Positions 61,335 through 63,572 of a stretch of 64,000 nucleotides of DNA are shown here, piece after piece; within the stretch, counting starts at the first letter, position 1; every line of letters begins with the position of its first letter. The stretch is from Nocardioides sp. HDW12B (lineage in GTDB: Bacteria; Actinomycetota; Actinomycetes; Propionibacteriales; Nocardioidaceae): assembly GCF_011299595.1 (NCBI RefSeq), contig NZ_CP049867.1, positions 3,286,001-3,350,000 on the forward strand. The letters are read 5' to 3'. A program made the position numbers and the translations under genes. Below the pieces are notes generated by a model. The model did no database searches, had not been told where the DNA came from, and was given only the letters and a program-made list of their open reading frames with translations.

Positions 61335-62357
61335 ATGGGGACCGTGGACGAGTCACCGGCGGACCTTCAGCTCCAGTCGCTCAGCGACACCATCGACCAG
61401 GCCGACCGTCGCGTCCGCGCCGGCGCCGACGCCCCCGAACGGGTCTGGCCCACCGGTTTCGACGTGCTCGACGCCAACCTGCACGGCGGCTTCCGCAGCG
61501 GCGACCTCGTCCTGCTCGGCGGGCCCCAGGGCATGGGCAAGACGACCTGGGCCCTCCAGGTGGCCCGCAACGTGGCCCGCCAGGGTCGCCCGGTCGTCTA
61601 CTTCTGCTACGAGCACGACCAGGCCGCGATGCTCGTGCGGCTCGTCGCCCTCGAGGCCGGGCTGATCGGCGGCATCGAGGCGCCCAGCGTCAGCCAGGTC
61701 CGGTCGATCTTCGAGACCAGCGACGGGCTCGGGCTGTCGCTCGACGAGCGGCTCGAGGAGACCACGGGCGGCGGCGAGGCCCTCGAGGTCGTCCGCGAGT
61801 ACGCCGACCGCCTCCGCATCCACCGCTCGTCCGGGGGCCGCACGACCCTCGACGTCATCAAGCGCACCGTCGCCGACGTCGCCGACCAGCACGGTGCCGC
61901 CCCGCTGGTCGTCCTCGACTACCTCCAGAAGGTCCCCGTCGCCGACGCCCCCACCGAGGACGAGCGCATCACCCAGGTCGTCGAGGAGATCAAGGACCTC
62001 ACCCTCGACCTCGACCTGCCCGCCCTCTGCGTCGTCGCCTCCGACAAGGAGGGCATCGGTGCCGGCAAGCGGATGCGGGTCGGCAACATCCGTGGGTCCT
62101 CGGCGCTGGCCTACGAGGCCGACACCGTGCTGATGCTCAACAACAAGTTCGACGTGGTGGCGCGCCACCACCTCGTCTACGACAGCGGCAACGTCGAGCG
62201 GTTCCGGCACTGGGCGGTGCTGACCGTCGAGAAGAATCGCAGCGGGCTGACCGGCGTCGACATGGAGTTCGCCAAGCGCTTCGAGCAGTCACGCTTCGAG
62301 ACCCACGGGCAGCTGGTCCGCGAGAAGCTCGTCGACGAGCGGGTGTTCATCGAGTAG
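61335..62357 (+). CDS. DnaB-like RecA-fold ATPase
   Basis: A 340-residue protein equivalent to the C-terminal ATPase half of replicative helicase DnaB, without DnaB's N-terminal domain. TGFDVLDANLHGGFRSGDLVLLGG leads into Walker A GGPQGMGKTT (62-71), then VVYFCYEHD, Walker B LVVLDYLQKV and the arginine-finger-like VEKNRSG. Replication or recombination role is possible, but such solitary proteins in actinobacteria are uncharacterised to my knowledge. The start is uncertain (ATG 61335, or GTG 61344). It separates rplJL from rplKA. Confidence 0.82.
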   Translation: MGTVDESPADLQLQSLSDTIDQADRRVRAGADAPERVWPTGFDVLDANLHGGFRSGDLVLLGGPQGMGKTTWALQVARNVARQGRPVVYFCYEHDQAAMLVRLVALEAGLIGGIEAPSVSQVRSIFETSDGLGLSLDERLEETTGGGEALEVVREYADRLRIHRSSGGRTTLDVIKRTVADVADQHGAAPLVVLDYLQKVPVADAPTEDERITQVVEEIKDLTLDLDLPALCVVASDKEGIGAGKRMRVGNIRGSSALAYEADTVLMLNNKFDVVARHHLVYDSGNVERFRHWAVLTVEKNRSGLTGVDMEFAKRFEQSRFETHGQLVREKLVDERVFIE

Positions 62358-62434
62358 CTGCTCGTCCGGGGATGGCGGGTGTGATCGCCTCTCGGTGGCT
62401 GGCTCGGGGTGCGGGCGCCTGCCGGAGGGTGCGC

Positions 62435-62754
62435 GGAGGCTGGACCTGCGATCGCCCCTCGCGAGCTCGGGGCGCTCTCGGTCCTTGAGGCCGTCCGCCC
62501 ACCCTCCGTCCGGTGACCGGACCCCGCGGCACCCTCACGTCGGAAACGACGCACGGACAGCCGCCCCACGTCGTCAACGACGGCTGTCCGGCTGCCTGGC
62601 GTCGTCAACGACACCAGGACCGTCATGGGTCCCGCTGGGCCGGCCTCACGTCGGGGACGACGTCGGGCGGGGTGGCCGGACGGGGCGGGGGCGGATGGCC
62701 TCAAGGGCCGAGAACCCTCCGAGCCTGCGAGGAGGATTCGCAGGTCCAGCCTCC
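62435..62754. repeat. Large inverted-repeat element with nested hairpins
   Basis: Arms 62435-62504 and 62685-62754 are inverted copies with about 80% identity over 70 bases by hand alignment, including 17 perfect bases at the outer ends. The centre holds four hairpins CGTCG-N4-CGACG with loops GAAA (62538-62551), TCAA (62569-62582), TCAA (62601-62612, within CCTGG...CCAGG) and GGGA (62649-62662). An outer CGGACAGCCG/CGGCTGTCCG stem encloses the second. Similarity fades outward but may reach 62380 and 62800. The rest of 62358-62858 has no gene except the terminator at 62809. Confidence 0.8.
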
Positions 62755-62808
62755 GCCGCCGTCGCGGGAGGCGACCCCGGCCGACGTCGCGCACACCCCC
62801 GGGACGCG

Positions 62809-62843
62809 ACGACGGCCCCGAGCGCAGTGCTCGGGGCCGTCGT
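62809..62843. terminator. rplKA terminator, possibly bidirectional
   Basis: ACGACGGCCCCGAGC / GCTCGGGGCCGTCGT, a 15-bp perfect stem with a 5-base loop, 15 bases past the rplA stop. Confidence 0.85.
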
Positions 62844-62858: not shown

Positions 62859-63572
62859 TCAGGCCTCGTCGGCCTCGGTGAGGTTGCGCGTGCGGTTCGG
62901 GTCGACCGGGATGCCCGGGCCCATCGTGGTGGAGACGGTCACCTTGCGGATGTAGCGGCCCTTGGAGCTGGCCGGCTTGAGCCGCAGCACCTCGTCGAGC
63001 GCGGCGGCGTAGTTCTCCGCGAGCTGGGTCTCGGTGAAGGAGGCCTTGCCGACGATGAAGTGCAGGTTGGCGTGACGGTCCACGCGGAACTCGATCTTGC
63101 CGCCCTTGATGTCGTTGACGGCCTTGGCGACGTCCATGGTGACGGTGCCGGTCTTGGGGTTCGGCATGAGGCCGCGGGGGCCGAGCACCTTGCCCAGACG
63201 GGCGAGCTTGCCCATCATGTCGGGGGTCGCGACCGCGGCGTCGAAGTCGAGCCAGCCGCCCTGGACCTTCTCGATCATGTCGTCGCCACCGACGAAGTCG
63301 GCGCCGGCCTCACGGGCGGCCTCGGCCTTGTCACCGTTGGCGAAGACGACCACGCGGGCGGTCTTGCCGGTGCCGTGGGGCAGGTTGACGGTGCCGCGGA
63401 CCATCTGGTCGGCCTTGCGCGGGTCGACACCCAGGCGCATGGCGACGTCGACGGTCTCGTCGAACTTCTTCTTGCTCGCCGTCTTGGCCATCGTGATGGC
63501 GGTCAGCGGCGAGTAGAGCTGGTCGGTGTCGACGCCCTTGGCGGCCTCGCGGTAGGTCTTGCTGCGCTGCAT
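62859..63572 (-). CDS. rplA: 50S ribosomal protein L1
   Basis: L1-stalk protein of 237 residues. It begins [42 protein letters not shown] and [23 protein letters not shown] are the family signatures. In many bacteria L1 represses rplKA. Followed by a strong terminator. Confidence 0.98.

Follow-up and report, generated by a model that had tools for sequence, protein, structure and literature searches.

Two dispersed families of palindromic repeats form a mosaic in Nocardioides sp. HDW12B, one of them also bracketing a predicted nuclease gene

The convergent gap of about 500 nt between a DnaB-like gene and rplA in Nocardioides sp. HDW12B holds a strikingly symmetric stretch of DNA, and this raises the question of what kind of element it is and what could have built it. 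An original prediction, made from the sequence alone, treated it as a single 320-base inverted-repeat element and offered a MITE, a BIME-like dispersed element, a structured RNA and a protein-binding array as its possible identities. The locus is analysed here within a window of 64,000 nt (C1:3286001-3350000 of the host's single-contig 4.19-Mb genome), and its repeats are followed through the host genome and into other Actinomycetes.

A mosaic in the gap between the DnaB-like gene and rplA

An inverted-repeat search of the window recovers two inverted arms, which are real but longer than the 70 bases first noted (106 nt each, 76% complementary), and which frame four GTCG-N4-CGAC palindromes with the very loops originally described (Table 1). 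The arms align with a score of 99, as compared to a mean of 20.2 (sd 3.3, maximum 40) in 500 dinucleotide shuffles and a maximum of 34 at 310 other places of equal geometry in the window, so that chance similarity, the concern raised with the prediction, does not explain them. Folding of the whole 421-nt stretch yields -305 kcal/mol against -229 (sd 6.7) in 100 shuffles, with z values of -11.4 and -11.0 on the two strands, and the motif ACGTCG-N4-CGACG is found seven times in the window where 0.5 occurrences are expected, four of the seven falling in the stretch and two of these four being one site counted on both strands. Arm score, fold energy and motif count are thus all far beyond chance, and it is due to this inverted symmetry that similar peptides are read from both strands. 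The two long ORFs spanning the stretch are without a Pfam match at E<=0.001, in agreement with the view that no recognisable protein is encoded, and its placement between the DnaB-like gene and the ribosomal-gene terminator is as had been reported.

Table 1. Features of the mosaic and its neighbours (positions are those of the window)
Feature	Position	Strand	Basis
Left neighbour, DnaB_C-domain ATPase gene	61353-62357	+	Pfam PF03796, E 7.2e-23; putative start codon; convergent with rplA
Left arm of the large inverted repeat, with A-family unit at about 62433-62506	62413-62518	+	76% complementary; A unit aligned with other host copies
P core 1, GTCG-GAAA-CGAC	62539-62550		Palindrome listing
P core 2, GTCG-TCAA-CGAC, 31 nt after core 1	62570-62581		Palindrome listing
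P core 3, GTCG-TCAA-CGAC, 31 nt after core 2	62601-62612		Palindrome listing
P core 4, GTCG-GGGA-CGAC, 49 nt after core 3	62650-62661		Palindrome listing
61-nt doublet formed by P cores 3 and 4 (49-nt spacing)	62601-62661		49-nt spacing once per array of at least three cores
Right arm, with second A-family unit at about 62683-62756, in opposite orientation	62671-62776	-	Arm complementarity; A-unit alignment
Terminator-like hairpin downstream of rplA, separate from the element	62809-62843		15-nt perfect arms
Right neighbour, rplA	62859-63572	-	Named by reading the translation

The search for further copies changes the picture of a single element. When the host genome is searched with the 421-nt stretch by BLASTN, at least 13 matches at E<=0.001 are obtained, at least 11 of which lie outside the element at 8 distinct places, so that a complete lack of other copies, the outcome named as refuting the prediction, did not arise. 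Among the 40 scored candidates (of 180), no second full copy of the stretch is present. Instead, the arms (A) and the core (P) are found separately elsewhere in the genome, and because they occur apart, one long transposable unit is ruled out. Of the original proposals, the single 320-base element therefore falls and the BIME-like element holds, since two dispersed palindromic families meet here, BIME-like, as a mosaic between convergent genes. In order, this mosaic would comprise one A unit, the four P palindromes (a pair of single ones followed by the 61-nt doublet) and a further A unit in the opposite orientation. The coincidence that remains to be weighed for a MITE, namely that an ordinary element moved by another host transposase happens to share palindromes with the nuclease gene described below, is barely credible despite the terminal inverted symmetry of the stretch, since the whole is not found repeated as one unit among the candidates scored, and since coincidence does not account for nucleases across the class being bracketed again and again by palindromes of differing kinds.

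The A family consists of a unit of about 70 nt, one in each arm, with two further good host copies at 784305-784399 and 3354156-3354228, and the four copies can be aligned with one another. All three A loci (784 kb, 3348 kb and 3354 kb) are in convergent gaps, and folded singly as DNA the units are moderate (z -1.1, -1.9, -3.7 and -1.4). No partner gene of the A family was identified; pairing with a paralogue of the nuclease described below was considered and rejected, as the A copies lie far from the four host members read. We read A as a second, orphan repeat family. Beside one A unit, a tandem array of a 64-nt repeat is present (L005:1590-1859, host about 784.4-784.7 kb; 4.3 copies, 90% matches).

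A structured RNA, or a two-way terminator or RNA stabiliser for which the repeat nature would be secondary, is suggested by the strong fold on both strands and by the convergent location. This explanation is very improbable: no Rfam family reaches the gathering score within the window, the six sub-gathering matches all fall at or next to the terminator hairpin of rplA, this separate and perfect terminator already stands behind rplA, the four A units fold singly only moderately as DNA, and the same gap in a relative (G002) has only a short terminator-like hairpin. The element is not found in the DnaB/rplA gap of the relatives compared. The gap is short in G002, G036, G027, G048, G052 and G055, and in G001, G003, L079 and L080 it is filled with other repeats. 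Short repeats in the gap of relatives (L078/L092, L079/L094, L080) include CGAGTCGGCGCTTGTGCACG and GTTCAGACGCGACTTTTTCGCC. The DnaB_C gene itself, on the plus strand, sits between rplJ-rplL and rplK-rplA (all minus, named by reading), thereby splitting a usually joined ribosomal cluster, and it has relatives at E<=1e-60 in 15 of the 61 genomes of the family-level set (host included), several of them at the same place.

The P family and the predicted nuclease gene that it brackets

At least 43 P cores are distributed over at least 10 intergenic arrays of the host genome. All 33 spacings between neighbouring cores fall into three classes, 30-32 nt (20 spacings), 40-42 nt (4) and 49 nt (9), and in each of the nine arrays with at least three cores the 49-nt spacing occurs exactly once; the 61-nt doublet that it defines is probably the repeat unit of the family, within which the orientation of the cores cannot be told because they are palindromic. 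These counts derive from a search for core pairs with spacings of 22 to 52 allowed, which gave 69 pairs. Among the 50 pairs listed of these 69, 26 are assigned to arrays and 24 were excluded by eye as coding, 22 of the excluded pairs having a spacing that is a multiple of three and none a spacing of 30-32 or 49. The figure of 10 arrays is a lower bound due to the other 19 pairs and to single palindromes (e.g. L024), which are left out of the count. Sequence between the cores is poorly conserved, and it is therefore the spacing that is kept and not the linker. Loops are often alike inside one array, such as TTAC at 418 kb, which suggests that arrays may have grown by local duplication. In 13 of the 43 cores, GTGG immediately adjoins the core at one end or both, where by eye it is paired within a longer palindrome.

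With a simple ORF caller, six arrays are convergent, three tandem and one divergent, and after adding by eye two missed genes, the nuclease gene and an Lrp-like gene, seven are convergent, three tandem and none divergent. The strict pair pattern occurs 18 times in the host as compared to at most once in each of 148 other Nocardioidaceae genomes (once in seven of them, seemingly coding by eye). P is thus lineage-specific.

What changes the meaning of the locus is that the P cores also bracket a nuclease gene at 368 kb, beyond the window. This gene (C1:368122-369216, minus strand, 365 aa) is directly flanked by two P arrays, one of four cores at 367984-368105 and one of six cores at 369235-369419; its further neighbours are presumably an acyl-CoA dehydrogenase gene and a gene for an Lrp-type regulator. 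The host protein has no match in Pfam or NCBIfam at E<=1, and the assignment draws on its family. In an alignment of 22 members, the catalytic-type residues E229, D263, E274, H280 and D289 are invariant in all 22, and weak matches to DUF559 (8 of 22 members, best 1.8e-4) and to MTES_1575 REase (9 of 22, best 1.1e-3) are obtained. A PADLOC AbiEi model matches the host protein at E 6.5e-10, and one such model matches the N-terminal part of 15 of the 22 members at E<=0.1, while the Pfam AbiEi models match none of the 22. Among solved structures the best match, over the catalytic stretch, is the non-significant one to PvuRts1 I (E 0.46), with none below E 0.4. We read the protein as an AbiEi-like N-terminus joined to a predicted DUF559/Vsr-like PD-(D/E)XK nuclease domain.

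Homologues are common, being present in 54 of the 61 family-level genomes at 1e-5 and in 67 of 118 class-level genomes at 1e-20 (host included in both), and none was found on plasmids or in phages and viruses. The genomes G151, G195 and G211, all of genus g29, match the nuclease family 10, 12 and 10 times, respectively, at E<=1e-20. The host itself has five matches to the nuclease family, four of which were read: besides the gene bracketed by P, the paralogues at 4161511 and 2199274 have two other palindromes, each on both sides of its gene, and that at 1393992 has no flanking palindrome.

Palindromes at nuclease loci across Actinomycetes

Flanks of 14 nuclease loci, when read, reveal differing imperfect palindromes, mostly of 45-75 nt, on both sides of most loci. 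For a broader test, the best local alignment between the upstream and the downstream flank of a locus was compared with alignments to the flanks of other loci, taking from each genome its best locus, 30 in each search, together with 19 extra paralogue loci, out of a larger number of matches. In the family-level set, 21 of 27 loci exceed the 99th percentile of 702 cross pairs (threshold 38), and in the class search 22 of 25 do so, including 16 of the 19 that lie outside the family; six and three loci, respectively, fail. Three loci are common to the two sets, and loci with incomplete flanks were dropped (L124, L130 and L134, 3 of 30, in the family; L208, L215, L218, L226 and L228, 5 of 30, in the class). 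Among the 19 extra paralogue loci, 8 exceed their own 99th percentile, a threshold inflated because same-genome pairs enter it, and 14 exceed the family threshold of 38. With DnaB homologues as a control gene (host included), all ten flank scores are 30 or less against the same threshold of 38; ten of 15 loci were used, five being incomplete, and DnaB's own cross scores, inflated by synteny, were set aside. Bracketing of the nuclease gene by palindromes therefore recurs across Actinomycetes with palindromes that differ by lineage, though not at every locus. Palindrome pairs about 1 kb apart were also considered as hidden nuclease loci and rejected, as L184, L186 and L187 hold other genes (L185 was left out).

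Similarity of the palindromes tracks that of the proteins (Mantel r 0.29 over 38 loci; none of 5000 permutations reaches it, the largest being 0.23). The 38 loci were hand-picked, comprising the passing loci and L110, which is just under the threshold, without L223, L224, L229 and duplicates, and as the correlation comes from the most similar proteins, shared descent contributes to it. In four of 38 flank units (L112, L115, L117 and L120), GTAGTCC is found at the outer end of an arm, where it is also paired.

Dispersal was followed using 12 joined flank units over 11 genomes. Among the matches listed, which end near E 7e-8, at least 94 places away from the nuclease loci were tallied by eye in seven genomes, each in the unit's own genome: 25 in G012, 16 in G002, 15 in G032, 13 in G048, 12 in G046, 3 in G031, and in the host 9 for the second family and 1 for the third. 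These copy numbers, as all those from the genome searches, are lower bounds, and two further cognate places each are present in G052 and G001 beyond those listed. No dispersed cognate copy was found in G022 or G054, the latter unit matching only at its own locus, and the one cross-hit, of 23 nt, is the second G022 match, to the G012 unit. The cognate palindrome is thus clearly dispersed in seven of the 11 genomes tested, and dispersed palindromes are nearly always genome-specific. The copies in G002 are inverted units of 61-62 nt with arms of about 20 nt and often an extra arm nearby, and the 61-nt P doublet of the host equals them in length.

Gain and loss were compared in G016 and G037, which belong to one genus and carry one palindrome family. 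Three dispersed copies are common to both, with flanks mostly 90-94% alike, and two further G037 copies are absent at the matching G016 places, where the flanks are diverged or rearranged: one place follows a groEL-like gene (named by reading) and has other sequence in G016, and the other is in a rearranged stretch. For two more G016 copies no matching place was located in G037, whose 70% completeness does not allow them to be called private. No clean empty site was found in this comparison, and no target-site duplication was seen by eye there or in the G002 copies. To the right of one palindrome copy, the segment G037:C21:13879-16573 has two further same-strand matches close by that are 99-100% identical, possibly a tandem duplication.

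Alternative readings and comparison with REP systems

P and A are dispersed, spacings are fixed, the nuclease gene is bracketed, the bracketing recurs with lineage-specific palindromes, the cognate palindrome is dispersed in most genomes tested and palindromes turn over with the protein. The reading that we favour, with a probability of about 60%, is that P consists of REPIN-like repeats with the predicted nuclease at 368 kb as their cognate enzyme in a REPtron-like layout, and that this nuclease spreads the palindromes. We infer the spreading because the layout matches that of a REPtron and because the host is without Y1_Tnp (PF01797; no match, the same search being positive in 5 of 14 known genomes used as a control); a Y1/RAYT partner for P was accordingly discarded. 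Mechanistically, the nuclease would recognise its own palindrome, probably as a cruciform or single-strand hairpin, and cut it, thereby copying or inserting units into intergenic DNA, where they would survive best downstream of genes.

The main rival takes the palindromes as binding sites of the AbiEi-like, DNA-binding part of the protein that the enzyme does not mobilise: next to its own gene they would act as operators, and elsewhere they would form arrays bound by the protein at 3' ends, with a role in insulation, termination or chromosome folding. Palindromic sites at fixed spacings, 31 nt being about three helical turns, would suit such binding, as would the preference for convergent gaps (by eye, seven of ten host arrays, the other three tandem) and the PADLOC AbiEi matches in up to 15 of 22 members. 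However, 49 nt does not correspond to an integral number of helical turns, and strict helical phasing of the 31/49 pattern was rejected on this ground. Palindromes also differ among lineages and among paralogues of one genome, the invariant nuclease residues would be needless for plain binding, and some copies differ in presence between relatives. We consider this rival unlikely as a full account, and a protein-binding array, as first proposed, may be part of the mechanism.

It is improbable that the gene encodes a selfish nuclease of the homing type whose target is its own palindrome family, with the dispersed copies as landing sites or debris of double-strand-break repair and not elements themselves. 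Residues of the Vsr/PD-(D/E)XK type would fit it, and so would a gene lying between palindrome copies, as expected after invading one of them, but each genome has one or a few copies of the gene, against many palindromes in seven of the 11 genomes, the G002 units are discrete at 61-62 nt, and the palindromes are nearly always genome-specific.

If nuclease-driven spreading is generalised, a second, independently evolved REP-type system would be widespread in Actinomycetes, in which every palindrome family has its own chromosomal AbiEi-PD-(D/E)XK nuclease, by which short inverted-doublet palindromes are copied or inserted into intergenic DNA, with enzyme and palindrome changing together rapidly and each lineage and paralogue having its own palindrome. 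To this wider proposal we give even odds. It would suggest a function for common unnamed actinobacterial nucleases, found in more than half of the class-level genomes searched, and for unexplained intergenic repeats, and the pairing is directly testable, since each nuclease predicts its own substrate.

Among known repeats, REPs are described in passages of several studies as short intergenic palindromes, often in inverted doublets at preferred distances and in mosaic clusters, mostly between convergent or unidirectional genes (PMC2817692, PMC3116915, PMC6006769, PMC3733652). P shares with REPs and BIMEs the short palindromes, the many copies, the intergenic location and the frequent clustering, and with REPINs the doublets at a preferred distance of 49 nt, while no unpaired foot of the GTAG type is evident in it. 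Terminal inverted symmetry is shared with MITEs, which differ by repeating as a whole unit, something not found for this stretch among the 40 of 180 candidates scored. CGTC-tagged REPs are, in the passages describing them, mainly alphaproteobacterial, carry CGTC as an unpaired tag and "apparently lack a dedicated transposase" (Di Nocera 2013, PMC3733652); P has CGTC inside the stem, palindromes without it are found in other lineages studied here, and no membership is claimed. None of PMC3733652, PMC6006769 and PMC2817692 uses the word Actinobacteria in its main text. RepRanger gives REP counts for three Actinomycetota species (PMC12306157), and palindromic repeats in this phylum have therefore already been counted by computer; its main text has no occurrence of transposase, RAYT, endonuclease or Nocardioid and gives no partner gene.

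On the side of the enzyme, the C-terminal domain is weakly similar to DUF559 and MTES_1575 REase and the N-terminal part resembles AbiEi of type IV toxin-antitoxin systems. A relative, VsrA of Caulobacter, is described in connection with mismatch repair (PMC12907096). Titles and opening abstract lines of the papers listed for DUF559 make no link to dispersed palindromic repeats, one abstract naming CRISPR, and among the open-access PMC articles searched, a scope apart from subscription journals and preprints, none was seen that pairs DUF559/AbiEi nucleases with palindromic repeats.

The closest likeness is to the REPtron, in which, according to passages of PMC6006769, PMC2817692 and PMC3116915, each repeat family has one cognate enzyme gene (RAYT or TnpA-REP) bracketed by its own REPs. 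Origin and spread of REP-like repeats have so far been tied to this one enzyme family, the Y1 HUH transposases, with one REP class left without an enzyme (PMC3733652). In the systems described here, a single enzyme gene likewise goes with each repeat family and is flanked on both sides by its repeats, though not at every locus, whereas the enzyme is a predicted AbiEi-like protein with a DUF559/Vsr-like PD-(D/E)XK domain in place of the Y1 HUH transposase of RAYTs. The pairing of nuclease and repeats may thus represent a second route, unrelated to the first, by which repeats of this kind multiply in bacterial genomes, and, if this is true, the same arrangement, here with palindromes of its own and an enzyme not homologous to RAYTs, would have evolved at least twice.
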